Source: Siphonodentalium dalli (Eukaryota; Mollusca; Scaphopoda; Gadilida; Siphonodentaliidae). Taken from it: a stretch of 64,000 nt of DNA. The notes beneath the pieces are model-generated. The model had not been told where the DNA came from, searched no databases, and saw only the letters and a list, made by a program, of their open reading frames with translations. The stretch covers positions 46,348,911 to 46,412,910 of the forward strand of contig CP136066.1 of the NCBI GenBank assembly GCA_032622095.1, given 5' to 3'. Positions 15,586-59,689 of the stretch are shown one piece after another; positions within the stretch are counted from its first letter, which is position 1; each line of letters starts with the position of its first letter. The position numbers and the translations under genes are program-made.

Positions 15586-15690
15586 TTATGTGATTGTACT
15601 GCGACCAATTCGGTCCGAGCTTACTTGAACGTGGGGTGAAGCTGATAGCGAATAAATCAAAGCATCGGCGATGTCGTCGGCTTGTAGAAA
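15586..15690 (-). CDS. DHRS11-like copy 1, last exon
   Basis: 35 codons with stop TAA at 15588-15586. Acceptor TTTGCAG|TTT. Reads FLQADDIADALIYSLSASPH then VQVSSDRIGRSTIT, equivalent to the family's PEDVAEAVIYVLS.P.HIQIGDI C-terminus. Confidence 0.88.
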   Translation of the reverse strand, partial: FLQADDIADALIYSLSASPHVQVSSDRIGRSTIT

Positions 15691-18600
15691 CTGCAAAGAA
15701 AAGAGCAAGTCTAGAAGTAAAACGTATCCGTGTTCATGGGTTAAACGGAAATGGCTCGTTCGATCCCAAAATCACGTAAACATAATTTTGGTGAGAGGTA
15801 TCTCAAACATATATGCATAGATTTCTTGATAATTTCGTCGATATAGTGCTCAAAGAACGTGGAAACCCCGTTGTGCAATTCTAACTTTATTTGACATATA
15901 TTGGACAAATTTTGACATAATTATATGTCAACCAATTGAATACCAATAAAGCTAAAATAATGTCATTACATTCAAATAGAGTTATGCACCTTGTATAAAG
16001 TGACTTTGGAGCTGTAATACTAGATGTACTCTGACCACTGGATATTGGATGTTCATGTGATAACTAATTTAGTGTTATACTTATATCACCTGCAACTATT
16101 TGGATCAAATCTTCATATTTTCACAGCTGGACATCACATATAATGGTATAAAACTGTTAAATGTGTGTTCATTAACACACCTGGTTCAACAATAAAAGGG
16201 TTGATTAAGCAATGCCAACCTCAATACAGATAAGTGCTAAGACAAACTTAAGTAAGAATACGAGGAAGATCAGAATAAAAGTATTTGACTTATTGCATCG
16301 GATAGTATGTGTGTGAATGATTAATTATTTCCTATACACCGATCAACCAATCGATACCAAAAAATAAACAGGTGCGGGGTGTGTCATCAACAGAAATTAA
16401 CACGATTCGACAAAAATACTAGAGCTCTTTTGAACACTTTTTTGTTGAGAAAAATAGGAATCACCCACAAGTGTATCGTCGTGGGTATGTACGGATGGAT
16501 GGACAGATGCACGACGGATTGTTGATTATAGGCATGTTGTGTACCATGCATTGTATGTGTACACAGAAACAAAGCATTTGTCTCAAGTGTGGTGAGAGAA
16601 AAGTTAAAACTGAAAAAAAGAAACATTTCATAATGAAAAGCAGTGCATACGCTGACTTGAGTAATTAATTCATTTTGCTCAACATTATCACATACACGTT
16701 ACAAACATTAGCGATGATGACAAATTCATCTTCACAATGACAACGGTCGCAAACTAATGATCAATTATGTGTGCAATATGATCCGGTTATTCTTCCAAAC
16801 AAGAGAAAATGGAACTATGGGCAAATGCAAGTGATGGACAATTAATATTTATATTTAATCAAGACTGATATGTAGGGTATAGTTAGACGATTGTTTGCTG
16901 TTTTATGCATGTCTATTATCTATATGTAGGGTATAGTTAGACGATTGTTGGCTGTTTTATGCATGTCTATTATGTATATGTAGGGTATAGTTAGACGATT
17001 GTTGGCTGTTTATGCATGTCTATTATGTATATGTAGGGTATAGTTAGACGATTGTTGGCTGGTTTATGCATGTCTATTATCTATATGTTTAATTTACTAT
17101 TAACTTATCTTATACTTTCTGGTATTTTCATCTGCTTGACTCGCCTGCATAAATTATCTGATCTGATCTTATCGTATTCTATCTTATCTTATCGGATTCT
17201 TATCTTAACAAACCCGCATAACTGATCTGATCTGATCTTATCGTATCTTATCTTATCTGATTCTTATCTTAACAAGCCTGCATAAATGATCTGATCTGAT
17301 CTTATCGTATGCTATCTTATCTTATCGGATTCTTATCTTAACAAACCCGCATAACTGATCTGATCTGATCTTATCGTATCTTATCTTATCTGATTCTTAT
17401 CTTAACAAGCCTGCATAACTGATCTGATCTGATCTTATCGTATTCTATCTTATCTTATCGTATCTTATCTGATTCTTATCTTAACAAGCCTGCATAAATG
17501 ATCTGATCTGATCTTATCGTATGCTATCTTATCTTATCGGATTCTTATCTTAGGGTGCGTTTACATTGCTGTATATATGTATACAGTTCTACACACATAC
17601 TAGTGTAAACGGTTAATATAGAAATGCACACAGAAAGAAAACAGTATTCGTTCGTGTGAGCAAAAATCGTGTCCGTTATAATTCACGGTCAACACCGAGG
17701 CATTGCGACATGCAAATCTGATTTGTTTAATTGTTACCCGGGCTTGGCGAATGTGCGTAAAATTTCTTTGTCATTTCAACCCATGTATTTCATATGGAAT
17801 ACAACGAGCATTGGGACAATTGTCAGAAAATCCGGTGCGCTATCTTTCTGCGGCAGTAGCACACGGCCGGGCCCACCATCTCCTGCTTCTCTTATACTCA
17901 ACTGATGCTGACGCGGCACATATCAAATCGCTTTGGTCTGCTGATTCATTATTTTTGTCTGGCCTAAACTGTCATGACTCATAGTGAATTGTCAATTACC
18001 AGATTACTGATGAGCGCGCGTTCACTATCAGTAATCATATTGTGATCACAGTAATCCGCGACACGTGACTTCATACATATCTGTATACAGATCCACGCCA
18101 ATGTAAATGCACCCTTAGCAAGACGCTGATTCTAATGATGATATTCCTGATTATGAATATGTAGTAATTGTGATTATTTATTATATATAAAATACTATTG
18201 ACTTAATTACTTACACAGCATACACTAATGGCATTATTTATTGATATGCTCTACGACAGTACACAGGGCACATTTGATCAGAGTTGTTGTAAACGAAGGA
18301 CGCGGATTATTACATTCTGTCAATAGTAAGATCAGATCAACGTACATGTACCTACGCATTCGTCTGAATGTAAAAAGTACCATGAAATGTGTATTAAACT
18401 ATTCTATGGCCTAATTCTATGTGCACAGTTGGGATTTGTTTAACTATATTTATTGACAAGTTGTTTACAGATATGTTGCCAGTTATACGGGGACTTAAAA
18501 CAAAGGCCCCAAATTCGAGACTGCAGATTTCCAAGATCATGTCATGAATCTTTACTTCGGCTTACGCCCGTAGAGATCACATTCCACCAGTACAAAACCT

Positions 18601-21600
18601 GGGAACTTCTTCATGTTCTGACCTAATGTAAATAAGGCTGGAATATATTTCTTTATTAATACGTGTTCCTCGATAATCTACTTTAAATTTGGGGATGGTT
18701 ATAGCTCCAGATTGTATGATTTTTAACTTAACTTGACGAAGTAAAGCTTGAGCTATTGCCATGTGTTGACGTCCCTCGTGGGTGCGTGCGTCCATCAACT
18801 ATTTACTTTGGTTCACCAAACTTCATATGGATCTTTGGATGGACATCTAGATGGGAGCCATCCATTATTTATGAAATCAGTTAATAAAAACATGGCCGCC
18901 AACAGCCATCTTGGATTTCTAATTTTAATCCATCGGCACATCCTGCAGCCCGCATATATCGAAGAAATATTTTATATATTTACAGCCATCATTAGGATCA
19001 CCTCCAGATAACAGCTATAGAATTTGAACGATTTTCGATGAAAAACATGGCCACCGGCAGGTACGAAATTAGGCCAGTACGTATTTGTTCAAGTTTGTCG
19101 AACATACTTTTGCTTTCTGGACTCGTTCTCAGATCACTGAGCAAGGTATTTATTATTGATTCGTGATGCCCATGGAACTGTGAACGACACAAATTTCGAC
19201 CGCTACCATGTCGGATTCGAACCCTCGACCGCATCGAAGGTGTATGTCGACCCACTAATCAAATTATCTATTCACTTCCAATTATGTACGTGACGGCAGT
19301 GGTAAGACCAGCTTAGCTATGGGACATAACGGTGTCTTGTAGTTTGCCATAGACAGCCCAATTCGTTACACATATCGAATTCGAGTTAGTGCTTACATGG
19401 GAGCGACTGTACCAAGCTTGAGCCGTTTCTTCGTCGAAACCACGCGCCAGAAACTCTGTCTTAACTAATCCAGGACTGATACTCTGAAACGAAATAAAAA
19501 TGAATAGCGGTTTCAATGTGGTCCACGAATAAAATCAGCAAAATGCATCAAAGATCTGATTTGATAACACGAAGCTACCATTTGTACTGTTTCTATACCC
19601 GAGATTACCCATGTAACAATGCAGTCATCCATGTTGTGTTCACCTACAATCAGGCCTCAAAATATGGTGCTGGTCATTTGCATACCGAGGTCCGCAGAGG
19701 GTGAATTTAGTAATGCGACCCTGCATAGTGGGCTAGCGTCACCAAAATTCACCCCTTTGGGGGCCTGACTCTGCACGGCTTCATCTGCAATGGGAGACAA
19801 AGATTTGATGTTCTCAGATGACGAACATGGTGATGAGCAACCATTTGGTACCTGGATTATGAGTTGTGTCGTCTCTCCAATTTGGGGATATACATAACGA
19901 AACAAGAAATGCAGCTTTAAGCTGCCCACGGAATGTTGGCACTTTTATTAAATTCATTGACTGGTCTACATTATCTATCGGCTTTCGACTTGAAACGAAA
20001 TGCATGTTTCTCGAAAGTGGTTCATCAGATCTAGATGGCGATCTAATTACTCCCTGGTCATATATACTAGTAGATTTTCAAAATATGATGTTTGAAAAAA
20101 TAATTAACTTTTTGTCCCGGAGAAAAAACCTGAAGATAATAAAGATCATTCGCACTTTTCTACAGCTGTCACTCAAATACTCAAATAATGAGCAGATATG
20201 TTTTACCAATCAGCGACAGAGCCGGTCGCTTGCTGCTAATGCTGTTATACATGCATACTTTCAGTGTTGAATTGTCTATTTCAAACAATGTTTTTGTTGT
20301 CAAATCATGTGCTGAACTGTTTATTTCGCCATTATGAATTGTATCTATGGTTATAACACTGTTTTTCATTTTGCACGAGATTGTCATAATTTTCACAATT
20401 AAGTCGGAAGTGTTCCGGTGTATACATGTACAAAACAGTAGGATCTGTCGGTTCGTAATTTTTCTCCCAGACCCAGTCTTTTTTAATTTTGATTGAAACA
20501 ATTATATTTTTATTTTAATGTTTGTTTGTTTGTTAAATGTTAAACTGAGCAAGGAGTTCAAACTAAACAAGTTAAAAAACATTTTTTTTAATAAAAAATG
20601 TTTAAAAGATTAAAATATGCTCGAAGTGCAAAGCTGAGTCTGTTTCTGTTAGTGATAGCATATGGGAGCGATCATAAACTAATTAAACTATATAAAAATA
20701 AAAAAAACTGGTATCCCAGCAACCGTAAGCGCCTCCCACTAGTGAATATATATAGAAAGCTCCCCTATGAGCTTCTGTACTTTTTTTCAGAAACAATTGA
20801 TGGCTTCTTTTTTTTTTACCGACACATTACGAATAGTGGTTATTGCATAATTACTAATAGTGATTATTGTATGTACTCGCGATAAATGTACATTAATTAC
20901 TAAAAGTGGTTATTGCATGTATTTCGCAAACATACTAATAGTTATTATTTCATGTATTTCGCGACACATGTAGATTACTAATTGTGATATATAATTGTAT
21001 GTATTACGCGACACAATCATGTATACGTTACTAAAAGTGGTTATTGCATGTATTTCGCGACACATGTACATTACTAATAGTGTTAACTAATTTGTTTTAA
21101 CCCCAGCCATTTCGAGATCGCTAAGGCTCGGCTCGAATCGAATTTAGTGCACTCGGATAATACATTTCATATACTTGCGAGTCATTAGAGATCCTTTATA
21201 TATCACACTAGCCGATGAGCCCGACGTTGTCCGGGCTATTCAAAAACCAAATTTCAAGTCCGGGCTATTCAAAAACCAAATTTCGATAGTTCTACCCGTT
21301 TCCGAGATCTGGTCTGCGCATGCGCGAAGCTGGCGTCGCACTGGCTCGGCGACCCGATAAAATTCGTATCCGGGGCAAGATACATTCACATAGCAAATTT
21401 CAAGTCGATAGCTCCACCCGTTTCCGAGATCTCGTCTGCGCATGCGCTGCACGGGCTCGCCAATACGACAACGTCCACCGCCTGGTCAAACTACACACAC
21501 GTACCAAGTTTCGTCCCGATCGGTCGAGAATCGTAGATTTGTATTAATGACAGACAAACAGACAGACAAACAGACAGACAAACAGACAGACAGAGGTCTA

Positions 21601-24600
21601 CAAAATATATATGAGATATATATATATATATATAATCTTTCCATAAAAATTCAAGTAAAAATTGAAAAATATACGAAATAGTTGCCAGAAAGGTGATCGT
21701 ATGAGGTTTTATGAACTTACTAATTCTAGACCAGTGTTATTCAAAAACCAAATTTCAAGTCGATAGCTCTACCCAGCCCGACGTTGTCCGGGCTATTCAA
21801 CAACCAAATTTCAAGTCGATAGCTCTACCCGTTTCCGAGATCTGGTCTGCGCATGTGCGAAGCTGGCGTCGCACGGGCTCGGCGACCCGATAAAATTCGT
21901 ATCCGGGGCAAGATACATTCACATAGCAAATTTCAAGTCGATAGCTCCACCCGTTTCCGAGATCTCGTCGATAGCTCCACCAGTTTCCGATATCTGGTCT
22001 GCGCATGCGCGAAGCTGGCGTCGCACGGGCTCGGCGACCCGATAAAATTCGTATCCGTTGTCCGGGATATTCAAAAACCAAATTTCAAGTCGATAGCTCC
22101 ACACGTTTCCGAGATCTGGTCTGCGCATGTGCGAAGCTGGCGTCGCACGGGCTCGGCGACCCGATAAAATTCGTATCCGGGGCAAGATACATTCACATAG
22201 CAAATTTCAAGTCGATAGCTCCACCCGTTTCCGAGGTCTCGTCTGCGCATGCGCGAAGCTGGCGTCACACGGGCTCGGCGACCAGATAAAATTCGTATCC
22301 GGGGCAAGATACATTCACATATCAAATTTCAAGTCGATAGCTCCACCCGTTTCCGAGGTCTCGTCTGCGCATGCGCGAAGCTGGCGTCGCACGGGCTCGG
22401 CGATCCGATAAAATTCGTATCCGGGGCAAGATACATTCACATAGCAAATTTCAAGTCGATAGCTCCACCCGTTTCGGAGATCTCGTCTGCGCATGCGCGA
22501 AGCGGGCGCCACACGGGCTCGCCAATACGACAACGTCGACCGCCTGGTCAAACTACACACAAGTACCAAGTTTCGTCCCGATCGGTCGAGAATCGTAGAT
22601 TTGTATTAATGACAGACAGACAGACAAACAAACAGACAGACAGACAGACAGAGGTCTTCAAAATATATATGAGATGAAACTCCTATAATATCATTGAAAA
22701 ATCCATTACATATTTTCTTATCTGTCATTAGTGGCTATTAGCTAATAGTCCAAGCGGTAATCACTTTCATTGTATACCTGCGCGCGTGACGTAATTTTGA
22801 TTCCGTACTATTTTGTGAATTACTATTTAAAACTGATTATTTGTTTTGATTAAAATTATATTATTGACAAATGTTACCAATAAATAACCCAATAGACGTT
22901 GTAATATCCATAACATTTCATGTTATATATTTTTTGTGTATTATTGTTCAATGTACGTCGACCTTAAGAATGTGTATCTCTGGTCAGTTACGATTGAATA
23001 GATAACCACTCATTGCATGAACTCATTATGTCTCACTCCACGATCGGTCCGTTGATTGTGATTAATGAATAGCACGATGTGTCCCTCCGCTTGGATAGTT
23101 CGTATTATATTGTGACTTTTAATAAACTCATCGAACCAGTCAGTTGTGTGTTATTCAGTTATTCTTTATTGTGTCATATTGCTGGCCATCACATTTGGCG
23201 ACGATTGATGTGGAACTGCATGAAGACTGCTACAAGATTAACACTGTACAGAGAGGTAAATTTGCTGCTGTTAGCAGTGATTTTGATCACTTTGCCCGAC
23301 TTTAGGCCATTCGCTGATAGAGAAATGGAGGCGTCGTTGTCGTCCTTTCCATGTTTCGACATATCAGACACGAACAATCTCTCGAACAACTGGTCCAAAT
23401 GGTTGAATAAATTTGAAATATTCATGGTTGCGATGGATGTAACGGACAACCCTAGAAAACGGGGTCTGTTATTACATTATTCCGGTTCTGCAGTTTACGA
23501 TGTATTTGAAACACAAGACTTGTATACAGTGTGCATGTTCTCTACAGAGATGATGTTGTTAAAAAGGCATAAAGCTTTAGTTTTTTTCATGTGATATACA
23601 AGATATTCAACGAGTTATGTTGGGATATAAGATTTTATGAAACTCGTTTGATAAATTTGATTCACAACTCGTCTACGACTCGTTGTGAATCAAATTAATC
23701 AAACTCGTTTCATAAAATCTTATATCCCAACATAACTCGTTGGAGATCCTCTATATCTGAGTATGTTTCGGGTGAACTATTCGTCAGTGAGTATTTAGTG
23801 TATACAGTGTTAAGATGGCGCTGAGGTTTCCACCCTCACAAGAATCTCAGTTCGTCACAACGGGAAATTAAAAAAAAGTGGTGCATTAACTGCATTCTTA
23901 ATAAACTAGAAAACTTTTCTGAACTACAGACACTGCTGAAACCCCAAAATTGAGATAATTCAAATAAATTCAGATATGTTTTTGAGCAGAACAAATATTT
24001 TTAAAATATAATTTATTTGGATGTGAGTTGAATTCTTATGAAAATCACAAAAAACAAACATACAATGATTGTATACAATATACAATCGCTGGTTGATTGG
24101 TTCAAGTAAATAAATAGGACAATTTGTTTTGGTTGAAAACCATGAAGTGCCAATTGGAAGAAGGGGAACACATTGCATACAAAGTATCTTGTGCGGCAAT
24201 ACAAGAAATGCATGTACTCACATGGCGGTTTGTGCTCCAAAATACACATAATATTATTCGCTTTTGAATTTTTCTCACTATCGAAATAAGTCGATAAATA
24301 TCTGAACTACCTTTCTACGAGCATTATGTAACCCAAAAAGGCGCATTGAAGTATTGAAAAATATTTTTACTATGAATAGGTGTTTGGGTCCCAAACAAAA
24401 ATCGCAGTTTGTGCGACATGGAACAGAAAAGAGTCTATTCCTGATATAGTAGCAATAAGAGCGTTTTTCTGACTTCTGGCGAAACGTAGAAAACGGCTGA
24501 AAAATGGCTGTGACTTTGGCAAGTGTTTTTTCAGAGCATATGAAGCCGGTATAGTTCATTTATTTATCGACCTATCGTATCCGTTGCTCCAGATTACGTA

Positions 24601-27600
24601 GACAAACAATTAGAGGTTCGAATGAGCCATGTCCGTTTCAGCGCTTTAGCTTTTCAATGAATACACTAATAAGAACTAGTTTCCTTTATTGACGATTTAG
24701 TTTTTCAATACAATCGACATGGCTACCATTTCTTAAATAAACCGCCACTGTAAAACATTAAATAATTTGGCTACCATGAATACGTTACCGTAGTCCGTAT
24801 GTTAGTCTTCTTTTCCCGTAACTCGTTCCTAACACCCTCAGCGATGGCTCTAACAGCGAACTTGGATGCGGTGTAGACGTGTATGTATTCACTGTTTAGC
24901 ACGCGGTGCCCAGATATGCTGTATAGAAATAAGCAGGTATGTATACATGTATATAATGCTGTTTTAGCCCTTTCCGATTCAGTTATAACATATACATTTG
25001 AATGGGTTATCATTCATCTAAAAGAATGATAAGAAAATATAAGCAAACGAACAACAGGAATCGTATCCATTAGAGGGAATTATACTTTCAACAAACGACA
25101 AACAGACGCACATCTAATCTAATATATATTTTGGGATTTATATTTGTCTGTCTGTCTGTTAGCTATGGCCGGGAAAACTGCCGGACGGATTTAGCCAAAC
25201 TCGCTATATAAGGGTAAAAACACACGGGAATGGTCATCGGACCGCTTTTGAGAACGTCCGAGCACTCCTTCTCCGTGCCCCCTGTCACCGTCCTTGGCAG
25301 GGAGTGGTTAACACAATCCATATTTGGTATTGTTAACCGAATAACGCTCTTTATTCTGTCCATATTTGCGCCTACGGCTGTTTGCAAGCTATTTTCCATA
25401 TTTGGTTTTGTTCACCAAATAACGCTCTTTATTCTGTCCATATTCGGTTTTGTTTATTCCGTCCACTCGCTCTGGTTCTGGCGTTCTCCGCAGTCTGATT
25501 TCACAGTTGCAGCAGAGTTCCGTTGTCGCTGATTTCACACACGTTGCAGGTCTCATTTGATGAATTTTTCTTGATAACATTTGCCACTAATTTCTGCTGC
25601 TCTCTACATAATTTCGTTGCGGCTGTTGAACTTCTCTCACACTACTCTTGCCTTCCATATTGCCATGTCTCCGCAGTCTGATTTCACACACGTTGCATCA
25701 GAGTTCTGTCCACTCGCTTTGGTTCTGGCGTTCTCCCGCAGTCTGATTTCACACACGTTGCAGGGACGGGTACCATCATTTCTCTTCATTAAAAAGGCAG
25801 ATTTAACTCAAATTAAATACAAAAATTAACGGATTTCGACGAAATTTGATACCTATGGATACTTTTGTCGGGGGAGTGTTTTGGACGGGTCAAATCGTTA
25901 CCCCGACCTGACCTTAAAAATGGTCAATTCAAGGTCAAAGTCCGGACGAAGTCGGGTCACCTGCTAGTATAATATAAATACCATGGGAATCGACTCCATT
26001 AATGGAAATGGTTTTTAACCCTTTCTAGAATCAAGAGAAGAACATCAGCAAAGGTGTGACAAAAATGTTTTGGACATATGCAGGTATCTGACTACCACTA
26101 TTTTGATGGTTGGTTGATAGTTAGACAGAGTATCCTTCCCTGTTATATGCTACTGTTGAAAACTTCTTGATTATGTCTGGCTTCAGATCACTAATGGCAT
26201 TAGCAGTTGAACAGTTATCATAAGCACCGATCTGCATGTTGAGTCATTATTAAGTGGAGCACATCTAGTTATCTCAGGACAACTGGTATAATGTTCATTG
26301 CATATTAACAGGATAACTAAGTTTTATATATTGTTATAATATATTTGTTTGCTATATATTTCTCCAGTTAAATGTAAATTATTCCCTCAAAACATATTGA
26401 CCATGATGTTATAAATGAACTTGATACCTCGGTTTAGTATAAGGCAAATTAAAGCACCATCGTATTGCAACATATATATTCACCCCTACCAAAATATAGT
26501 TTTTTAGGCTACTGGACAATTATAATAGAACAGTCTCAGGGTTTGTCTATAATTATGAAAAAACCCATTTGGAAAAAATTTGCAAGCACCAGAAAAAAAC
26601 ATGTTTCTCTGGTCTCCGGAACACCCACCCACCCCTCTGTGTACGGATTTGTTTGTGATACCCCCATGTACAGTGTAGTGTATTTAAGATAGTGCTATGT
26701 CGCATATTACCTGTTAAGGAAGAATATATGCCCGTCGTCTACTTTCCTCTCCTCTAAGGACCGGTATGTCTCTCTTGTGCATATCATCAATGCCAAAACA
26801 TTCACCTGCAACTCGTTCGTATAATACAATCAATAAATCAACAAGACGCTCTCCTTTGCAGCTTTCGGAACCACGGCCTTCGTTGGTATTTAATGTATAG
26901 ATTCAACTACGTTAAAGGCCCACTTAATTTTCGAATCACCAGATCACATTTTATACAACATATTCCATAATATGAATCGTACGTGACACGTAGTGGAGCA
27001 ACCACACATGCTGTGCCTCAATTTTGCCTTTTATCGGCGACATAGCGCTAAGAATAATTTATGTAACATCACGCAGTGATCAGGACGGAGATGATATGCC
27101 AACTTGACAAGACGTTTCGTGGATTGTGCAATCTTGTCTGGATTGTGGCCCACAAACCCAAAACGACATCATAAACCGATTTCATCAAGCTAACCAAAGA
27201 AATTGGTCTAATTGAAATTAATAGACCTAAATCACACGTGAATTCTTCGTAAGTTGTGAATTAGTTACTTTCATTTTTATCGCGATGCTTCATTCACAAT
27301 TCCGCGTTTTTTGCAATCTCCACACTGTTGCTAACCGGAAGTCACGTGATAATTTCTCCAGAATCCATACCCGCGATCTAAAAAATCACTGATGGATATA
27401 GAAAAAAATATATGACGTCATGCACATGCCTTAGGGATAAGCACCCTTGGTGGTTGCTATTATATACCAGTTGAAAGAGGAAGCTCTCAAACATTGTATT
27501 ATCAACTGATCCGGTCGAATACACTGGGAACATGCTGTTTTGTCGATGTACCGAGATGTGTACTGTACTTAAGTTTGATCCTGACTGCACTGTACAGTAT

Positions 27601-35629: not shown

Positions 35630-35637
35630 TTGGTGGG

Positions 35638-36327: not shown

Positions 36328-36700
36328 TATAAATAATGTATGTTTGTCTAAGTGAAACGAATTAAAACGTAACAATATTTAAATACGAGTGAGGTAGGTA
36401 TCGATGCATCTATCCCGCCTATTGACATAATGAGAATGTGAATCATTTGCAGCGTCCACTAACACTGACCATCACAACTTTTGTTCAGTTGGTAGAATGA
36501 TGATATCGTGTACCTGGAACAGATATGTATATAGCAAATTAGACATGAACGGATCATTGTTGTCTCAAAATGGGGTGAAGCAATAGGATCTTCATTAACA
36601 TACAACTATTTGTTCTTTGAATATTGTGACTGGAAATGCACGTGATATATGCGGGATAATCCAGTAATACCCCACATATTCCATACCAGTATATTATATA
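36040..36700. repeat. Local duplication of the SDR 3' flank block
   Basis: The ATGAGAATGTG...GCATTTGCAGC...CTAACACTGACCATCA block is present twice (36060-36200 and 36429-36560), but once in unit 1. Confidence 0.65.
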
Positions 36701-49700: not shown

Positions 49701-52700
49701 GCTAATGAATCTGGTATTTCTGTAATTGAAGAAAAAATACATGTACATGTATGCTGCATATATATGTACATGTATGCTGCATATATATGTACATGTATGT
49801 GGTATGGATGCATGTATTTTCATAATTTGCAAACATATTCAAAAACCAAGTGTAAAGTTCATTCTTCCAACAATATTAGCATTTTCGGCGATTCAGATGT
49901 CAGAAGACCATAATTCAATCGTAAATGGGGGGAATCGGGCCTGACAAAATCATGGATAGTTTGTTACGATGTCATCGCAGATGAGTATATTTAATATCGG
50001 TGGTTAACCACGTGATTAACTATCCTATGATATTTCCATTGACTTTGTACGATTTTTAAGTACACGCAAATTTCACCAAGTGGAGGTAACCAAGGATACG
50101 TCACAATTTTGCAATTCTGCATTGATATAACTCGTGATCATGTCGTGAGCATGCGCAGTCCAACTATCGGTTATTACCCAAGATGGGAATCTGTCCACTT
50201 ACAATTGAATCGTAGTCATATGGATCATGAATGTTCACTCAGTGAACGTACAGATGGAAGATACAATCTTACGTGGAGGAACCGAGATTGACGAGATCGT
50301 GGATAGTTTGTTCACACGATTACGATGTCGTACATGATGAAATCACAGTTTTTTTGTATGTGATTGACTATCATGCGATCCTTCAGGCCACAATTTTTAC
50401 ATACACATGACTGATTAGTGATTACGTCGCAAATGGGGATAACCAAGGATACGCCACAATTTCGCTTTTAAATAAAACAGTGCATGGTATTATTTTTTAC
50501 CTACGATTTTGAGGTGAGCATGCACAGTTGAGCGGTTGCTTCCTACGATGGAAATATTTCCACTTACGATTGTATCGTGGTAATCTGAACGTTCACTTAG
50601 TGTTAAATTGGCCATGGCATGACAATATTAAAGAGATTGTGGGAATTCTATCAGGTTGACATTTGTTAGAATATAAATGGTATGAAGTATAACTGATCAT
50701 AACTGACAATTTCCTTATAAGCTACATGTATATTTTCAATAAATGGAACCTTTTTATTTTCCAACTATTGTCATATTAATGTCGACCGATAATTCACTGC
50801 ATTTATGGCAGAATTTGATTTTGCAGACGAAAATAGCCATTCCCGGATAGTTTTTCTGTTTATGTAGCATAAAATTTAGGCCAATTTATAATTCATTAAA
50901 AATCGTTTTTGCAGTTGGGAACACAGTTGGGAATATTGTGTAGGGCTACCTTTATATATGAATCATAAATGCCATATAATCATAGTCCGTCAGAAGTTAC
51001 TATTTTGACCAAAAAAATGTTCATTTATCAATGACGGATTCCATTTTCTGAAATATTTCACGGAAACAAAATTAGGCCGATTTACTATCAAATTTCATTT
51101 GAATAAAATGGATAAGTCGTGCGCTTTTAATTGTAGTTCTAGTAACAGTCTGTTCATAATGAGAAATCACTTCAATTTATTACTAATTAGTTTCACTTAC
51201 CTAAAATCCGATCAATTTGTATCCTATGAAAACGTAAGATGGACGTCGTTATTGATCCATGCACGAGGCCCCGATCTGCGCCGGTAGGTAAAAAATAGGA
51301 ATCATTGTGCCGCTGTTGTAAAGTGGAACGAAATTACACGCATCAAGAACTATTACCTCAAATTTGTTAAGGCCACCACCAACAGGAGCGTGAAGACAGG
51401 GTGATTCAAGTTGGGGTGTATATATCCCAAACAGTTCATGACTGCCACATTAGTTGTAAACTTCACACCATATAAGAGCACCCCACCCCCTGGAATACGG
51501 AATAATAGGCCTACCACTTAACACAGAGGGTGGAATACGAAATACCAGTTAACAGCCATATGGATAAATTCTCTATTGCCGTACGAACGCCGGTCATCAT
51601 GTCTAAAATTATATAAATTGATGATCGACGATCTGTATGTCAAACCGTGCATTTATTGTGACAAACATCGCATTTATATTATTCTTATGATCATTTTTTT
51701 GGAAGGTTGGTATACGAATAGCGGTATTTTTGGAATACCGAATACCTCCGAACAGAGGGGCCGGAATATGGCGTACCTCATAACAGGGCATGGAATACGG
51801 CGTACGAAATGGGGGGGCTCTTATACCGGGTATGACATATATTACATAAAAAACACACTCAACGCGCTGTTGAAGGGGGATGTCTGTGTAACCTTTGTTT
51901 ATTAATTTAACCCTTTCATAACGGGAGTTAGGCTGGTGCAGCATTAAGGACGCTGTTTGTATTAAACATTTATCATGGTCAGTGTATGCATTTTAATATA
52001 CAAGGCAATGTAGAAAACATCATTTGATGGATATTTTACTTAAAATAGTCAGTGGAAACTACATAAAAGCAATATTGTATGCATCCCTGTATAGCCAAAT
52101 CGAATTGAACTGTGGATATTGTATTGTTTTTTCATCTGAGACATGTATTCTGTTCAGATATAGCCTTATATATGTTATAAACATGCCAATAATGGCATAA
52201 TTTAGGCTTTTTCCCCATAATTTAGAGGGTCAAAGCTGAATAAATTCCCTTATTTCAAATTTGTAAGATGCCAAGCCAGCTGAAATGGTGTATCAAACCT
52301 CAAATGGCAGCATTTCTTATCAGATGGACATCTCTACCAATAAATTAAACATTTTTCATGGTCATTGCATGCATTTTAATATACAGGACAAGGCAGAAAA
52401 CATCATTTGATGGAAATTTTACTTAAAATAGTCTGTGGAAACAACATAAAAGCCATGTTGTATGCATCCCTGTATAGCCAAAACAAATTAAACTATGGAT
52501 ATTTTATTGTTGATTTCATCAGAGACATGTATTCTGTTGAGATATAGCCTTATATATGTTATAAACATGCAAATAGTGGCTTCATTTGGGCTTGCTTCCA
52601 TAATTTAGAGAGTCAAACCTGAAGAGATTCCCTTATTTAAAATTTGTAAGATGCCAAGCCAGCTGAAATGGTGTATCAAACCTTAAATGGCAGTATTTCT

Positions 52701-55700
52701 TATTAGATGGACATCTCTCCCAATAAATTAAACATTTCTCATGGTCACTGCGTGCATTATGCTATATAGGGCAAGGTAGAAAACATTATTGGATGGATAT
52801 CTTACTTAAAATAGTCTGTGGAAACTACTTAAAAGCAATATTGTATGCATCCCTCCATAGCCAAATGCAATTAAACTATGGACATTTTATGGTGTATTTT
52901 ATCAGCGACATGTATTCTGTTGAGATATAGCCTTATACATGTCATTAACATGCAAATAGTGGCTTCATTTTGGGCTTTCTTCAATTATTTAGAGAGTCAA
53001 AGCTGAATAAATTCCCTTAGGTTTCAAATTTAAAAGATGCCAAGCCAGCTGAAATGGTGTATCAAACCTAAAATGTCATTATTTCTTATCAGATGGACAT
53101 CTCTACCAATAAATTAAGCATTTCTCATGGCCATTGCATGCATTTTAATATATAGGACAAGGCAGAATACATCACTTGATGGATATTTTACTTAAAATAC
53201 TTTGTGGAAACTACATAAAAGCCACATTGTATGCTTTCCTATATAGCCAAATGAAATTCAACTATGGATAAATTGGATATTTTATTGTTTGTATCATCAG
53301 ATACATGCATTCTGCTAAGATATAGTCTTTTGTGTGTTATAAACATACAATAGGTGCATGGCCTCATTGGGCTTGCTTTCATAATAAGAGAGTCAACTCT
53401 GAAGAAATACCATCGGTTTGAAATTGGTAGCATCTTCCATCCTTAATAAGAGGGGTATATACCAGCTTGAAGTACCGGTTTAATTAATTGGTTCAATGCG
53501 AGGGGCCACCAGAGAGGTTTGTCTAGTTCGGGATGGTGTGGCAAACCACCAACTGGAGATTTCAAGGGAGGCCTCCTCAATGGCGACCCACTATATTGTG
53601 CAAACAAAATTTTATTAAAATTGTATAAAGGTCAGCATGCCCTAAGAGCATTGAGAAATAGATAAAAACACTTACTGACAGATTGCCAATAACAAAATTA
53701 CAGCTGTTGAAACTATTGTTATGTAAACAAAACTGTTACAGTGATTTGTCAACACATATATAATACTAGCTGTATTATTAGTTCAAATATTTAACTATGA
53801 ATAACATTTTCAGAATATTTAATCAACAGGTTGGACCTTTTCCAATGTTATGTAAACAAAACTGTTACAGTGAGTGACTTGTCAACAATTATATAATCCT
53901 ATAGCTGTAGTATTACATTTAGTTCAAATATTTAAGTATGAATATGAATTTCAGAATATTTAATCAACAGGTTGGACCTTTTTCAATGTTTACCATAAAA
54001 TTTTGATCACAATTTTGCTATCGTTGGACTTTTACAGTTATTTCATTACAGCAGTAATTTGTACATAACAATTAATTCTTGGTTTAGAAATATTTTCTTT
54101 AAGTATTTCTTAACTTAGAAAAAAAATCTTTGAAATAAGAAATATATATTTAATTTTTGAAGCCATTTTCTTAGTAAGGAAATTGTTTCTTGTTTCAAGA
54201 CTAAAATCTATCTTTTTTGAGAAAACTATCTTTTGTCTGGTGGGAGTTTCTTAAATTTTCTTGATGTAGCAGACTTGGGGGGTATATTTCCCAAAATAAG
54301 ATTTATTTTCCCGTTTCAGGAAATAGTTTTTCTTGTTTCAAGATATTTTATCTTATTAAGAAATTATTTTTGGCAGTGTAGTTCATGCAATGTTTTCTAT
54401 GGCGTGGTATGGTCGATTTCTTTTTAAATTTCGCGGATGTTAGTAGAATGCTATATTCCACAGGTTGGCATAGCGCCTGAGGACTAACTTATCAATCTCA
54501 CGCACACCATCAAGTCCATATTATGTCTTTAATCGCTTTAGCTTTTCAACGAATACACTAATAAGAACTAGATTCATTTACTGAAGATTTAGTTCTTCAA
54601 ATCAATTGACATGGCTACCAACGCTGAAACAAATCGCCACTGTGAAACATTAAATAATTTGGTTACCATGGATCAGTTACCGTAGTTCGTATGTTAGTCT
54701 TCTTTTCTCGTAACTCGTTCCTAACACCCTCGGCGATGGCTCTGACTGCGAACTTTGATGCGGTGTAGACGTGCATGTGTTCATTGTTTCGCACGCGGTG
54801 TCCTGATAAGCTGTATAGAAACAAGCAGGTATACATGTATATAATGCTATTTTAGCCCTTTCTTCTCCCATTCAGTTATAAAACATACATTATAATGGGT
54901 TAGCATTCATTTGGAAGAGTGTTCAGAAAAAAGTAAGCAGACGAATAGCAGGAATCGTATCCATTGGAGGGAATTGTTCATATAATACGTTCAAAAAACG
55001 ACATACAGACGAACATATAATACCAATACCATTGGAATCGACTCCATTAATGGAAATTGTTTAAATAACGTATGTATTGTTCAACAACCGGCCGTTTGTA
55101 ATCCTTTCTGTACTAAATTGTTTCTCCCAGTCAGTTAAGAATTGTACATATATGGAATGGTCCTATTGGTTTAGATGGGCTGTTCAGGCGATAAAAGCCG
55201 ACGACAGATACCTGAACATGCAGGAGTCCTATTTATTGAGGGACATGTTTCGATAGTGAGTTCAACAAACTTATTCTCTGAACATGTCCTACGGGGTAAC
55301 TATACTCATTAATGATCCTTTAGTATAGAGAGTGTTTTAAACTTAATATCTGAAGATGTCACAAGGGAATTACTTGTCAATGAGTATTTGGTAAATACCT
55401 TGTTAATTCAAATATACAGTAAGAAAATAAGTTCGTCGATTCCAATGTACCGTAGGATATATAGAAGATCTTTGATGAGTCTCAATTCCATACGAATTTT
55501 ATTAAACGAGTGCACACAATTCTATTCAGATCGAATTTAGGGGATGAGGTTAATACATTTCGTGTACAATTGCGACGAACTTGTGATCCCATTTATCACA
55601 TAATTATATTTTAACAATGGAAAAACGATCTCGAAACGGCTGGGGTTAAACAATATTAAAATGAATTTTCTTATCGCAACCAAAGAGGAATTAAATACAC

Positions 55701-58700
55701 CTTAAAAAAAATATAGTTCCATTTTAAATGCGTCTTTTCTTGTTGACAAAATTGTTCAATCACCCATTTTTATCTCACAGTCAACACTAAATAAAATAAC
55801 CCAACGCAACTCGAACATCATAATTATATTCTAATTAACACAATAATTTAAATTCCGTCAATGACATCTACGACATTGCGATAGATAGATATGCTTTATT
55901 CTCTCATCCAAATAAACACATGGAAATTACATGTAACGGATATTGAGAAACAGAGTTATATACAATAGTCATATAGTATGATTATAATACAAAAGATAAT
56001 ATATACGTCATGTAACCCCGGATCTATAGCAGGTTGGGTTTAATCACCCTCATTAGTTGTCAGAAACCGCTACCAGCGTATCAGCTGAGACGAGTAAGAA
56101 TGCACTGCGCAACGCTCTGGTGTCACCACACGCGCACGATAATACACTAATATTAAGCTACAGAACAGGATGGCGAATGGCAGCAAACGTAGATTCAATG
56201 TTGAACTATTTGAATGTTTAGTTAGAGCATGTCCCGTCTCCATTCAATTATGTGTGCGTGAAAGTGTAACTGGACATCCCACACTTTTATCCCACAATGA
56301 CATTTTGTTTGAGATAACACCAACTTATGATTATATTACGGGTGCAATTGCACCAATATTCAGAATTCCGGGAGCAAATATAAGTTCTCTCGCTGTGTTT
56401 TCCTCATGGGAAGAAATGCAGATTGAAAATAGGTTGAAATTGTTCTGCTATTTGAGTTTCCAATACTAACTAATATAATCTATGCCGATTTTAGACCATG
56501 ATGCGAATATTTTCCAAGCCGCAGTCATAAATGACTTAAATGGTCATCGCTTTAAAAATAGCCACATGGGTGTTGGGTTGGAAACGTAAAGATAAGGATT
56601 GTCTATTTCTTCCTAAGCACGTTTTATATAGTTTCCGGGGCACATTATAATATATATGAATTAAAGACCGATATCCGGAAACGCTTCTATCAATTAATAT
56701 TGATAATATACCAACATTTTCTTATATAATACGATTTATCAAGTTGGACATTTTTTGTTACAATTTTTAGGACTTTAGATATTAATTGGTAGAAGCGTTT
56801 ACATACCCAGGAAACTATATAAAACGTGTCATAGGAAGAAACAGACAATCTTTAACAGTCGAACAACTCCGACTAATGGCTGCGGACACATGTACCACAG
56901 TAGCGATGGCATGGTAGGTGTGACAATTTATTATGGTGTAGTTTGGTGACAATTGGATGTCATAATTAATGTGCCATAGCAAGCCATGTCGCCCTCTGAA
57001 AATTCGCACAATGAGTTTACCAAGCTCTACCAGCGACGGTCGATATCTCAAGGATGTATCTACCGCGAATGTCTTGTCGATGTTGATCTTTACTCAATCC
57101 GCAGTGTTATATATTTGTATGCTATAACCACACAAGTTCACTCACTTGATAACTTAATGAATAACCCATCTCAACAGCAATGATTGTTCTTACTAATGCA
57201 ATTAATATAAGTAGATAAACATGCATGCATTAAGATCATATAAAAAAACGAACCACAATAATCTCATATATATTTTGAAGACCTCTGTCTGTTTGTCTGT
57301 TTGTCTGTATGTATGTTTGTCTGTCATTTATACAAATCTACGATTCTCGACCGATCGGGACGAAACTTGGTACGTGTGTGTAGTTTGACCAGGCGGTCGA
57401 CGTTGTCGTATTGGCGAGCCCGTGCGGCGCCCGCTTCGCGCATGCGCAGACGAGATCTCGGAAACGGGTGGAGCTATCGACTTGAAATTTGATGTGTGAA
57501 TGTATCTTGCCCCGGATACGAAATTTAGTGAATATATCTTGCCCCGGATACGAATTTTATCGGGTCGTCGAGCCCGTGCGACGCCAGCTTCGCGCATGCG
57601 CAGACGAGATCTCGGAAACGGGTGGAGCTATCGACTTGAAATTTGGTGTGTGAATGTATCTTGCCCCGGATACGAATTTTATCGGGTCGCCGAGCCCGTG
57701 CGACGCCGGCTTCGCGCATGCGCAGACGAGATCTCGGAAACGGGTGGAGCTATCGACTTGAAATTTGGTATGTGAATGTATCTTGCCCCGAATACGAATT
57801 GTATCGGGTCGCCGAGCCCGTGCGACACCAGCTTCGCCAATGCGCAGACCAGATCTCGGAAACGGGTGGAGCTATCGACTTGAAATTTGGTGTTTGAATA
57901 GCCCGGACAACGACGGGCTCATCGGCTATCTCATATATATTTTGAAGACCTCTGTTTGTCTGTTTGTCTGTATGTTTGTTTGTCATTTATACAAATCTAC
58001 GATTCTCGACCGATCGGGACGAAACTTGGTACGTGAGTGTAGTTTGACCAGGCGGTCGACGTTGTCGTATTGGCGAGCCCGTGCGGTGCCCGCTTCGCGC
58101 ATGCGCAGACCAGATCTCGGAAACTGGTGGAGCTATCGACTTGAGAAATTTGCTACGTGAATGTATCTTGCCCCGGATACGAATTTTATCGGGCCGCCGA
58201 GCCCGTGCGACGCAAGCTTCGCGCATGCGCAGACCAGATCTCGGAAACGGGTGGAGCTATCGACTTGAAATTTGGTTTTAGAATAGCCCGGACAACGTTG
58301 GGCCCATCGGCTAGTAATATATATTTGAGTCAATGAGTAAATGCCACCAGGCCACGGTTAAACACAATTCTGGATGATCTATCGTGCAAGTATATATATC
58401 GTCGGGAATACAAGTTAGCAAAACGTAATGAGTAGAGATCAACATTGGTGAAAATCAATGGTTAATTGGTCCAATTGACTCATTGTGCGGAAAATCAGCG
58501 GGCGACATGGATAGCTATGGCACATAATTATGACGGACCGATTGTCACCAAACTCCACCATAATAAATTGTCACACCTACTATGCCATCGCTACTGTGGT
58601 ACGTGTGTCCGCAGCAAATGTGGAATAAATAAAGTTTCCGGGAATTGTGCTCTACAAAAGTGATGCAGTTAAAAGGCTAAATATCAATTTTAGTCAGCTT

Positions 58701-59689
58701 TGCAGGGCTCTGCTGGCACAATTTGTTATTGTTACATTCATAATTCATAGTTGGTGTTGCAGGGCTAGACTGGCGGCAATATTTAAACAAAAACAATACA
58801 AATGTATTGAAGGCGGATAATCTCTTTGTAAACACGTGATATATAATTAGCGGGGTATACAATATTAGATATCAATCGAAGATTCCTGTCCGGAAATGCT
58901 TCTATCGATCAATATTTACTTTATTTCGAATATTTTCTGGTCTAAAAGGGTTTCGTTGTTCAGCTAACGAACAATATTGGTTACTGTTAACAGAGACCAG
59001 AAACTTTATTGTGTAATTTTGTCACAAATAAACGTTAATTAGACTCATTACTGTGGAATAAAACAATACAATCAATCTGGGACATTTGACATTCGGTACG
59101 TATAGGAGCAGCCTAATGCTCTCTATCGCTATATGGATCCCCCGAATGGTCTGTACTAAAAATAGACAAATAAAGTGTCCCAATTAATCATAATAAAATA
59201 TTCGAAATAAAATCAATATAATTGACGGAGGCCTTTCCGGACAGGGGTCATCAATTCATATTTATTAATTTATACTCACGCAACTTTTAGTTAAAGAGAT
59301 AATCCATTCTATCCCACTTTAATTCAGTCGATCATGCAGGGCTTGATCGGCTCCTCACTTCTCATAACATCATCAGTGGCGGTCTTGTGGTCGGACGCAA
59401 CATAATTCTCAGCTTATGTAAATATTTTATTTCAGCATTCGTTATAATGTCTGTAAATATTTCGTCCATTTTATATAAATGTCCATCCTCGACATCACAA
59501 TACGGTATGGACCCTATTAAAAACGATATCTTTATTATTGCTTTATTTTAACCCTGAGTTGTTATGCATAAAATGATGTTATGTCACATATTACCCGTTA
59601 ATGAAGACTATATGTCCATCGTCTATTTTCCTCTCATCCAATGACCGGTATGTCTCTCTTGTACATATCATCAATGCCAAAACATTCAC
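37635..59689 (-). CDS. DHRS11-like SDR, copy 2 (3' four exons; 5' end outside window)
   Basis: Second member of the tandem pair. Exons 59689-59595, 54810-54681, 40313-40227 and 37739-37635 match exons 3 to 6 of copy 1 in length, phase and splice signals, with no stop or frameshift. Catalytic Ser (LSGHRV), Tyr and Lys (YTASK) are kept. Differences are conservative (LDERKIDDGHIVFING, GLVETEFLARNFDEET, SSDIISRSTVI), which argues for a functional paralogue. Intron 4 is 14.4 kb against 5.3 kb in copy 1 because of nested insertions, and intron 3 is 4.8 kb. No exon 1 or 2 match was found between 59690 and 64000, so they should lie to the right of the window. The substrate is unknown; NADP(H)-linked reduction is expected from the family. 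Confidence 0.85.
38122..38145. repeat. Poly(G) tract
   Basis: A run of about 16 G inside intron 5 of copy 2, absent from copy 1. It is followed by TACAAAAATTGCAGAAATG, a context resembling the G-tract repeat at 2550-2590. Confidence 0.6.
38544..38674. repeat. Palindromic element, ~52-bp arms
   Basis: TGGACGCATTATAATTTCCA...CAGTATGGAATTTGACCAC is mirrored by GTGGTCAAATTCCATACTG...CTATTCTAATGCGTCCA around a 30-base loop. Found in copy 2 intron 5 only. Confidence 0.82.
39480..39790. repeat. Two tandem AAGATGGC-type units (one in copy 1)
   Basis: CCAAACTTC.TATGGATCTTC, GATGGGA.CCATCGATTATT and GGCCATCTTGGATTT recur at 39495-39600 and 39654-39760. The matching place in copy 1 (18800-18930) has a single unit, so a ~160-bp unit was gained or lost after duplication. 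Confidence 0.75.
40227..40313 (-). CDS. DHRS11-like copy 2, exon 5
   Basis: 29 codons, SISPGLVETEFLARNFDEET to AQAWYSRSH. Acceptor GTTTCAG|AGT, donor CAT|GTAAGC. Confidence 0.9.
41127..41345. repeat. Minisatellite, TTCGCGACACATGTACA type, copy 2
   Basis: Five units of the repeat also found at 20815-21085, at the collinear position of the second SDR locus. Confidence 0.7.
42123..42608. mobile_element. TTAA-flanked MITE, ~485 bp
   Basis: TTAAAAGGCACGGGAGGCC on the left and its inverse GGCCTCCCGTACCTTTAA on the right. TTAA at both edges suggests a piggyBac- or Kolobok-like element. No coding capacity. Confidence 0.7.
42609..43036. other. No gene seen
   Basis: AT-rich interior of the 12-kb insert. 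Confidence 0.4.
43037..43144. repeat. Imperfect hairpin, ~45-bp arms
   Basis: ATGGATTTGTTGATACAGCA...GGAAAGATAGAA is mirrored by TTCTATCTTTGTGCGC...AAATCAACAAACCCAT. Confidence 0.65.
43284..43508. mobile_element. Palindromic element, TACAGTAATGC family, copy 1
   Basis: Ends TACAGTAATGCCCTAAGTA and GCATTACTGTA. Arms contain TTTCAGGATTTAGTC.GAAAT and GGCTTGTTG.CATTCATCGG, folding around CTCTCCCCAAAAGC. Confidence 0.85.
44258..44355. repeat. Dispersed repeat, TTAAAGGG...CCGGCCAT family, copy 2
   Basis: Same ordered words as 5665-5770: TTAAAGGGTACAC, TTCCGGCCATTTATG, CTTTTATACTCAACA and TATGCAACAAAT. Confidence 0.5.
45000..45158. repeat. Repeat with TGTAAACAAAACTGTTACAG
   Basis: One copy of the unit duplicated at 53700-54000 (ATGTAAACAAAACTGTTACA then GTGATTTGTCAACA, ending CAATGTTTA). 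The TTAA MITE at 45159 inserted at its right end. Confidence 0.65.
45159..45421. mobile_element. piggyBac-like TTAA MITE, short copy
   Basis: TTAA then CCCTTTCATGATGGGAGATG at the left, and CTCCAGTCATGGAAGGTTTAA at the right. It contains the same TATTCTCTTATATATGTGAG / AAATATAAGAGAATGCATTG hairpin as 10524-11400. The relative at 53985 shows the unfilled site (CAATGTTTACC). Confidence 0.72.
45752..45939. mobile_element. Palindromic element, TACAGTAATGC family, copy 2
   Basis: TACAGTAATGGCCAAAGTAA at the left and TTACTTTGGGCATTACTGTA at the right. Arms TTTTTCAGGATTTAGTCGG and GTTGCCATTCATCGGAAAGC / GCTTTCCGATGAATGGCAAC are almost perfectly paired. The right arm lacks the CATATTGCCGACTAAATCC part seen in copy 1. 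Confidence 0.88.
46501..46694. other. Intron flank with empty TA site
   Basis: Homologous to 41402-41518 joined to 54379-54430. GAGCGTAGTTCAGACAATG spans the TA without the element found at the other locus. Confidence 0.6.
46695..46874 (-). CDS. Exon of an unrecognised gene (60 codons)
   Basis: Minus strand. Acceptor TTGACCAG|AAT, donor AAG|GTAGCA; exactly 60 codons with phase 0 at both ends. Reads NLEVYQFHISTQSTTVPMDQ, then SQALFLSLSEGYELLKIYYA, then LVLVCETDQLVPRRYANWKK. The composition looks like a globular protein and differs from nearby random frames. I do not recognise the family. A decayed copy lies at 54425-54533. The preceding coding block at 47013 ends with a donor of matching phase. 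It lies on the same strand as the SDR gene, inside its intron 4, but does not belong to it. Confidence 0.45.
47013..47247 (-). pseudogene. Coding block upstream of the 60-codon exon, probable frameshift
   Basis: Minus strand. One frame reads GRYALNPVLCSEGEALIYNH then MMTNVFIKGKNDTSIPSLME and stops at TGA near 47065. The next frame then reads ISDVYILSDLVVKIMASE up to a GAA|GTTAGT donor (47013), phase 0, which joins well to NLEVYQFH. Either a one-base change broke the exon, or a short exon starts at a TCAG just before TGACGTC. Not recognised. Confidence 0.35.
48006..48153. repeat. Palindromic element, ~70-bp arms
   Basis: ATTAACTGTCATGTGGACT...GGAGATATAACCGTGAGG...TAAGTGGTCATAACTTG is mirrored by CAAGTTATGTCCACTTACC...TCACGGTTACATCTCC...AGTCCACATGACAGTTAAT around an AAACCCTTTGGGTTT centre. 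Confidence 0.88.
48407..48490. mobile_element. Palindromic element, TACAGTAATGC family, half copy
   Basis: Left arm only: TACAGTAATGCCCAAAGTAA, GACCACTTAACC, GGGTAATTTTTCAGGATTTA and ATATGGCTTGT; then unrelated sequence. Confidence 0.75.
48853..49081 (-). CDS. Putative exon of an unrecognised gene
   Basis: Minus-strand frame of about 75 residues: HYLDFEKDANEMSEIPAYN, CFLIPLEEKLFNTWDSS, AVKICQISDRRVEFCNRLVD, TDIVGIIKRVNGVNIT. It ends at a possible donor ACAT|GTAAAC (48852). An AG before TCATTACC (about 49068) could be the acceptor. It may be an upstream exon of the gene at 46695-47247, since it shares strand and spacing. No domain recognised; low certainty. Confidence 0.3.
49228..49450. repeat. 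Poly(G)/poly(C) repeat
   Basis: G runs at 49307-49321 and 49360-49373 and a C run at 49426-49439, linked by AAAAAACTGCAGTTTTTGCTG and CCAAAACCGAAGAAAACAG. It resembles 2450-2640. Overlapping frames on both strands are glycine- or proline-rich and not genes. Confidence 0.8.
49738..49803. repeat. ~25-bp tandem repeat, about 2.5 units
   Basis: ACATGTATGCTGCATATATATGT repeated: GCTGCATATATATGTACATG occurs twice, then decays. Confidence 0.8.
49945..50640. repeat. ~340-bp diverged direct duplication
   Basis: GTGGATAGTTTGTT, AACCAAGGATACG(T/C)CACAATTT, GAGCATGC.CAGT and TCCACTTAC.ATTG.ATCGT occur in the same order at 49952-50260 and 50291-50610. Confidence 0.7.
50641..51906. other. No gene seen
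   Basis: AT-rich with a weak repeat of GGAATACG words (51490-51800). The open frames at 51576-51944 on both strands follow this repeat and have no domain. Confidence 0.4.
51907..53440. repeat. 385-bp tandem array, 4 units, with a TTAA/CCCTTTCAT end
   Basis: Left edge TTAACCCTTTCATAACGGGAG matches the piggyBac-like ends at 10524 and 45159. Four units follow, starting ATTAAACATTTNTCATGGTCA at about 51961, 52345, 52729 and 53114. Each contains TACTTAAAATAGTCTGTGGAA, GCCAAGCCAGCTGAAATGGT and GATGGACATCTCT. No matching right end was found. Also absent from copy 1. Confidence 0.85.
53700..54000. repeat. ~140-bp direct duplication
   Basis: TATGTAAACAAAACTGTTAC..., TTCAAATATTTAA.TATGAATA and TTTAATCAACAGGTTGGACC occur twice (53717-53848 and 53850-53990). 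A third copy is at 45000-45158. Confidence 0.75.
54425..54533 (-). pseudogene. Decayed copy of the 60-codon exon
   Basis: GATAAGTTAGTCCTCAGGCG then CTATGCCAACCTG on the minus strand matches the 3' half of the exon at 46695-46874 and its downstream intron. Stops and changes break the frame. It sits immediately right of the split TA element; similarity ends where collinearity with SDR copy 1 resumes (54535). Confidence 0.6.
54681..54810 (-). CDS. DHRS11-like copy 2, exon 4 (catalytic)
   Basis: 130 bp. Acceptor TATACAG|C, donor ACG|GTAACT. Reads LSGHRVRNNEHMHVYTASKF then AVRAIAEGVRNELREKKTNI. The frame is masked because longer open frames occur on other phases. Confidence 0.9.
55017..55440. other. 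Intron 3 of copy 2, left part
   Basis: Holds the empty Helitron target at about 55014-55030. No gene. Confidence 0.5.
55440..55670. repeat. Hairpin element, TTAATACATTTCGT family, inverted copy
   Basis: AGAAGATCTTTGATGAGTCT..., GAGTGCACACAATTCT, GGTTAATACATTTCGTGTAC, ACAATGGAAAAACGATCTCG and AACGGCTGGGGTTAAA are the reverse of 12424-12610 in order. Confidence 0.6.
55671..56169. other. No gene seen
   Basis: AT-rich intronic sequence (intron 3 of copy 2). 55870-56000 resembles a LINE 3' UTR (TAGATAGATATGCTTTATTC) but has no coding part. Confidence 0.35.
56170..56469 (+). CDS. Hypothetical 99-residue ORF in SDR intron
   Basis: ATG in strong context (AGGATGG), reading MANGSKRRFNVELFECLVRA to KLFCYLSFQY. 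It is opposite in strand to the SDR gene and lies inside intron 3 of copy 2. It is hydrophobic-rich in the middle (ITGAIAPIFRIPGANISSLA) but has no clear membrane helix. No family recognised. No polyadenylation signal close by and no counterpart in copy 1 intron 3. It may be an orphan gene or chance. Confidence 0.25.
   Translation: MANGSKRRFNVELFECLVRACPVSIQLCVRESVTGHPTLLSHNDILFEITPTYDYITGAIAPIFRIPGANISSLAVFSSWEEMQIENRLKLFCYLSFQY
56593..56853. mobile_element. MITE, 261 bp, ~46-bp terminal inverted repeats
   Basis: GATTGTCTATTTCTTCCTAA...CACGTTTTATATAGTTTCC is mirrored by GGAAACTATATAAAACGTG...AGGAAGAAACAGACAATC. Inside, GGAAACGCTTCTATCAATTA is mirrored again by TAATTGGTAGAAGCGTTT, giving a nested second hairpin. 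Confidence 0.78.
57262..57928 (+). mobile_element. Non-autonomous Helitron A, first of a head-to-tail dimer
   Basis: Starts TCTCATATATATTTTGAAGA after an A, has TCTGTTTGTCTG repeats, then CGACCGATCGGGACGAAACT and several 122-bp units. Its end is AGCCCG-GACAACGA-CGGGCT then CATCGGCTA, which runs directly into the next element's TCTCATATA without intervening DNA (the final G of CTAG is missing). Confidence 0.8.
57929..58314 (+). mobile_element. Non-autonomous Helitron B, second of the dimer
   Basis: Starts TCTCATATATATTTTGAAGA at the junction and ends GCCCGGACAACGTTGGGC then CCATCGGCTAG, followed by T. It has about two 122-bp units. Outer flanks of the dimer are A (57261) and T (58315). Confidence 0.8.
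58315..58884. other. No gene seen
   Basis: Intron 3 of copy 2; 58466-58663 has an open frame without a domain. AT-rich. Confidence 0.4.
58885..59245. mobile_element. MITE, ~361 bp, ~50-bp terminal inverted repeats
   Basis: CCTGTCCGGAAATGCTTCTA...ATCAATATTTACTTTATTTC is mirrored by GAAATAAAATCAATATAATT...GGCCTTTCCGGACAGG. CCGGAAA.GCTTCTATC links it to the inner hairpin of 56593-56853. Confidence 0.72.
59595..59689 (-). CDS. DHRS11-like copy 2, exon 3
   Basis: 95 bp as in copy 1. Acceptor ATTTCAG|GTG, donor ACGG|GTAATA. Reads VNVLALMICTRETYRSLDE then RKIDDGHIVFIN. The junction codon becomes GGC (Gly) where copy 1 has AGC (Ser); this lies two residues before the catalytic Ser. Confidence 0.87.

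Follow-up and report, generated by a model that had tools for sequence, protein, structure and literature searches.

A tandem pair of DHRS11-like reductase genes in the scaphopod Siphonodentalium dalli, one copy with glycine at the catalytic serine position

Human DHRS11, listed with the synonyms ARPG836 and SDR24C1 and described as a gene of 7 exons encoding 260 amino acids (PMC6157328), is the closest solved relative of the locus reported here, and tandem amplification within the same gene family is on record in cichlids, where dhrs11-a arrays of 8–14 copies are described (PMC8073704). The catalytic residues of classical SDRs are assigned to standard positions 144/159/163 in an account of one plant SDR, in which alanine at each of these positions is stated to have nearly abolished imine reduction (PMC7540600). 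A departure at the serine site is described for GOX0716, an SDR that carries threonine there and so keeps the hydroxyl (PMC11926874).

We analysed a stretch of 64,000 nucleotides of S. dalli DNA (hereafter the window; contig CP136066.1), which has a low G+C content of 37.5%, kilobase introns and many tandem arrays, as suits an animal genome. Its minus strand carries a spliced DHRS11-like SDR gene (copy 1) and, further right, a second, tandem copy (copy 2) of which the 3′ half is visible. Judging from sequence comparison, and with a probability of roughly 0.7, we interpret them as two tandem same-strand genes for DHRS11-like classical SDRs, putative NADP(H)-type carbonyl/hydroxysteroid reductases, of which copy 1 would be a working enzyme and copy 2 a selected protein with a diverged active-site loop. 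The pair is real and of an ordinary kind, given that tandem dhrs11 duplication has already been described in cichlids (PMC8073704), there with 8–14 copies against the two visible here; the replacement of serine by glycine in the otherwise intact frame of copy 2 is not ordinary.

The original prediction of a tandem DHRS11-like pair built from short exons is borne out by protein-to-DNA searches, by the match to human DHRS11 and by the splice junctions. A tblastn search of the window with the joined copy-1 protein recovered the six pieces claimed for copy 1 together with four for copy 2, in matching strand and order, the latter lying near 59.7, 54.8, 40.3 and 37.7 kb (exons 3 to 6) with matches far beyond chance (E 1.2e-22, 8.8e-15, 6.2e-14 and 4.6e-12). 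DHRS11 is by a clear margin the best solved match of copy 1 (1xg5, E 7.7e-80), ahead of the next solved relative, farnesol dehydrogenase 7w61 (E 9.1e-41, 37% identity). With the exon model of the original prediction, copy 1 is 54% identical to human DHRS11 and matches Pfam adh_short at E 3.3e-46, and exons 3–6 of copy 2 match 1xg5 at E 3.2e-38 versus 1.5e-16 for the next solved relative. The TGxxxGxG cofactor motif of classical SDRs is present in exon 1 of copy 1 as TGASSGIG, and the catalytic YxxxK in both copies (Tyr160 and Lys164). Among NCBIfam models, 228 SDR families were listed and none of the best 25 reached its own cut-off; no relative turned up when genomes were scanned with the protein by itself.

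All five junctions proposed for copy 1 obey GT–AG and the joined frame is open as claimed; the total of 251 codons in six exons gives way, in our sequence-based gene model, to 252 codons in seven coding exons of 132, 207, 95, 130, 87, 66 and 42 bases (Table 1). The alignment with 1xg5 runs from the start methionine to residue 248 of 252, and the agreement with the 7 exons described for the human gene (PMC6157328) is a likeness in exon number only. That the exons were thought hidden from simple open-frame calling is simply the normal look of a spliced animal gene. Exon 3 does lie under an unrelated longer frame, exon 6 narrowly so (68 versus 61 codons), and exon 4 does not, its longest overlapping frame (80 codons, 25013–24774) being the true one. 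Exon 1 of copy 1 stays open in frame into intron 1, forming a 288-codon frame (30395–31261, minus strand) whose intron part (30398–31090) has no Pfam match and ends in what we take to resemble the tail of a LINE reverse transcriptase.

The 3′ end originally drawn for both copies was wrong, with exon 6 running into an intron and a seventh exon missed. HVQ is encoded immediately ahead of GTAAGC, a phase 0 donor (CAA/GTAAGC), in copy 1 and copy 2 alike, which places the end of exon 6 at 15625 and 37674, respectively, instead of at the stop at 15586 drawn for copy 1. We reject the extension to that stop, with its tail VSSDRIGRSTIT, as intron read-through because it is unlike the tails of the family and a better tail exists: the earlier tail reads HVQVSSDRIGRSTIT, relatives end, for example, in HVQVHDILVRPTQQ (L001), and downstream acceptors lead to VHDIIILPTEQTL and a stop in copy 1 and to VHDIIILPTEQKL and a stop in copy 2. 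The corrected tail outscores the earlier one in 80/80 fetched relatives (mean gain 9.0 bits), which are bacterial records, the best 80 of 165 relatives among 218 matching stretches, all found through one C-terminal pattern and not an unbiased sample of SDRs. It also extends the 1xg5 alignment to copy-1 residue 248 from 242 before. Within the window, exon 7 matches at three places, with E 6e-11 (the query's own origin), 1.7e-5 and 1.9e-4, and the next match is at E 0.32; a PT.Q tail occurs in only 47 of the 80 loci, and the motif alone is not diagnostic.

Table 1. Features of the gene pair in window coordinates; exons on the minus strand start at the higher coordinate.
Feature	Positions	Strand	Remarks
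Copy 1 exon 1	31091–31222	-	Start Met, TGASSGIG cofactor motif; open frame and GT donor; tblastn; 1xg5 aligned from first residue
Copy 1 exon 2	27777–27983	-	NNAG motif; GT–AG; 1xg5 alignment
Copy 1 exon 3	26711–26805	-	Asn115; ends with AG, first two bases of Ser145 codon
Copy 1 exon 4	24789–24918	-	Third base of Ser145 codon; Tyr160, Lys164
Copy 1 exon 5	19397–19483	-	GT–AG; tblastn
Copy 1 exon 6	15625–15690	-	End corrected to donor CAA/GTAAGC
Copy 1 exon 7	14501–14542	-	VHDIIILPTEQTL then stop; missed in original prediction
Copy 1 3′ flank	14351–15397	-	In common with 36323–37409; left edge of duplicated unit
Copy 2 exon 3	59595–59689	-	Last two bases GG turn Ser145 codon into Gly
Copy 2 exon 4	54681–54810	-	Tyr160 and Lys164 kept
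Copy 2 exon 5	40227–40313	-	GT–AG
Copy 2 exon 6	37674–37739	-	Corrected end at donor
Copy 2 exon 7B	36472–36513	-	VHDIIILPTEQKL then stop; counterpart of copy 1 exon 7
Copy 2 exon 7A	36109–36150	-	VHNILIRPTEQTS then stop; second candidate terminal exon

The three junctions between exons 3 and 6 of copy 2 are all GT–AG, and over its five exons there is no stop and no indel, with splice sites intact. In the last 4.3 kb of the window, beyond exon 3 (59690–64000), tblastn recovered neither exon 1 nor exon 2; they lie beyond the window or are missing. Exon 7A sits inside a repeat of about 140 bases (36056–36197, minus strand) whose identity is 79.6% to the exon-7 segment of copy 1 and 81.7% to that of copy 2. 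Nothing equivalent to exon 7A turned up in the rest of the window, copy 1 included, and it may represent either an alternative last exon or a relic. The stretch between 36490 and 36000 lacks both AATAAA and ATTAAA, and two ATTAAA lie near 35.5 kb, beyond exon 7A.

The tetrad Asn115–Ser145–Tyr160–Lys164 is complete in copy 1, as it is in human DHRS11. The catalytic set said to be kept in both copies is broken in copy 2, which retains Asn115, Tyr160 and Lys164 and has glycine for Ser145. Codon 145 is split by intron 3 at the junction of exons 3 and 4, reading AG/C (Ser) in copy 1 and GG/C (Gly) in copy 2; one A-to-G change therefore both removes the serine and leaves the exon 3 donor with 6 instead of 7 consensus bases out of 9. 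None of the other GT sites near exon 3 of copy 2 rescues a serine, the sole in-frame one lying 42 bases on, behind an in-frame TAA. Gly145 depends on a single base in one assembly, and a lone A-to-G difference would fit a sequencing or assembly error or a rare allele; as it stands among 31 other substitutions between the copies, we regard such an origin as highly improbable.

We identify Ser145, and not Ser147, as the catalytic serine on the strength of conservation, spacing and the solved farnesol dehydrogenase. Position 145 is serine in 80/80 of the pattern-selected bacterial loci and in 3/3 solved relatives; position 147 is serine in 11/80 and alanine in 65/80 of those loci, and alanine in farnesol dehydrogenase. 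The distances from Ser145 to the tyrosine and on to the lysine (15 and 4) are those of the standard positions 144/159/163. It seems unlikely, at well under an even chance, that copy 2 works as a usual DHRS11-type enzyme in which Ser147 or a main-chain group takes the part of Ser145, and that the pair is simply a duplication for dosage or substrate range. The three remaining tetrad residues would suit such an enzyme, as would Ser147, which copy 2 keeps and which is close enough in sequence that it could partly stand in, and tandem dhrs11 copies with different expression are described in cichlids (PMC8073704). Yet Ser145 is invariant in 83 relatives (the 80 loci and three solved), the substitute position is serine in just 11/80 loci, and GOX0716, another SDR without the serine, is described as using threonine, with the hydroxyl kept (PMC11926874). 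A literature search for SDRs lacking the serine returned no directly matching title among those listed. In copy 1, which would be a working reductase, Tyr160 would act as proton donor, Lys164 would lower the pKa of Tyr160 and Ser145 would polarise the substrate carbonyl. The activity to be expected of a DHRS11 enzyme is NADPH-dependent reduction of 17-keto and 3-keto steroids.

Across exons 3–7 of the corrected model, the copies differ at 32 of 417 bases, with 14 of 139 residues changed and 17 codons silently so. The dN/dS comparison proposed in the original prediction gave a pairwise omega of 0.318 for these exons, which rejects 1 (2ΔlnL 9.18), does not reject 0.65 at the usual level (3.63) and does not reject 0.5 (1.46), the omega predicted for a pair in which only copy 2 had been released from constraint; with the earlier exon model, omega was 0.39 (2ΔlnL 6.5 against 1 and 0.47 against 0.5). 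The whole alignment thus leaves room for an escape of copy 2 from constraint, and a decaying pseudogene, which has lost its catalytic serine and perhaps exons 1–2 as well and owes its intact look to youth, is a serious rival, if an improbable one. The serine is indeed lost, and exons 1–2 did not turn up in the part of the window to the right of exon 3 (4.3 kb). Indels number 0 in 417 coding columns versus 50 in 3,773 noncoding columns (counted with the earlier exon 6; the corrected exons are also equal in length), where about 5.5 coding indels would be expected on both branches together; for the copy-2 branch alone, their absence has a P of only 0.063, which can be counted on the side of decay. 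Noncoding divergence over six collinear blocks is 0.141 (K2P; 0.093 to 0.241 per block).

Against decay stand the five exons of copy 2 with neither stop nor indel and with intact splice sites, and the distribution of the changes. Residues 131–157, which hold position 145 and lead to Tyr160, take up 10 of the 14 residue differences, leaving 4/14 residue changes and 13/17 silent changes outside; without this segment, omega falls to 0.149 and 0.5 is rejected (2ΔlnL 5.53), on a split chosen post hoc. A scan for clustering of the residue changes gave p 0.0006–0.004 for windows of 17–30 residues and 0.36 for a window of 10, and Fisher tests gave p 0.012 and 0.018, with the window lengths and the 131–157 boundary chosen after the data were seen. 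The silent changes are not clustered (scan p 0.37–0.70). Under the earlier exon model the corresponding values were 0.006–0.019, 0.63, and 0.057 and 0.080. At the sites where human 1xg5 agrees with one of the two copies, the changed copy is copy 2 at positions 135, 145 and 152, and copy 1 at 143 and 196; the loop has thus been altered in both.

We therefore retain, at the probability given above, the reading of an intact copy 1 beside a selected copy 2. The product of copy 2 would still fold and could reduce carbonyls poorly, accept other substrates or have a non-catalytic role. More specifically and tentatively, as one possibility among several, copy 2 might be a maintained DHRS11 paralogue that lacks the tetrad serine and has a rebuilt loop, either a pseudo-reductase or a reductase of altered chemistry beside its intact parent, possibly in mixed SDR oligomers and with exons 7A and 7B perhaps providing alternative C-termini. 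Human HSDL1, an SDR pseudoenzyme that keeps the fold with a lost catalytic residue, offers a parallel, with the difference that HSDL1 changes the tyrosine, whereas copy 2 changes the serine and keeps the tyrosine and lysine.

The expectation that most repeats in the introns could be dated relative to the duplication did not hold. Only 4,630 of the 12,565 bases of copy 1 between 14351 and 26915 match copy 2 collinearly, and most intron sequence therefore has no counterpart for comparison. A 47-base array (41178–41325) is probably older than the duplication because it lies within a shared block (20877–21088 with 41126–41344); the arrays at 16868–17088, 17143–17552 and 21815–22521 lie outside shared blocks. 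A dispersed element, built around a 122-base tandem core with GACA-type microsatellite flanks, occupies 21197–22675 (plus strand) and 57261–58324 (reverse), and may belong with non-autonomous Helitron-type elements with minisatellite cores, which it resembles. Copy 1 carries its 122-base minisatellite in intron 4 and copy 2 carries it, reversed, in intron 3 (90.5% identity over 652 columns), non-equivalent introns and opposite orientations that mark two separate insertions. Intron 4 of copy 2 also holds 3.7 tandem units of 383 bases (51961–53408), and intron 2 some 23 units of 41 bases (59771–60730), the first of them about 80 bases upstream of exon 3; no alignment with copy 1 extends past the edge of this 41-base array.

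Elsewhere in the window, an open frame at 5998–6714 (minus strand) encodes a Myb/SANT-like DNA-binding domain (PF13873, E 5.8e-7) and adjoins a frame at 4257–4853 (plus strand) that has no Pfam match; the two may represent a Harbinger-type transposon, which they resemble. Ten further open frames had no Pfam match above the curated cut-off, and Rfam gave no match at its gathering thresholds.

The value of these results lies mostly in annotation: a gene model drawn by eye was nearly right yet ended inside an intron, and whether catalysis was conserved hinged on one codon split across an intron. Should copy 2 turn out to be expressed and under constraint, the two genes would offer a compact example of an SDR that lost a single catalytic residue next to an intact parent, in which the effect of the serine would be testable in one background.
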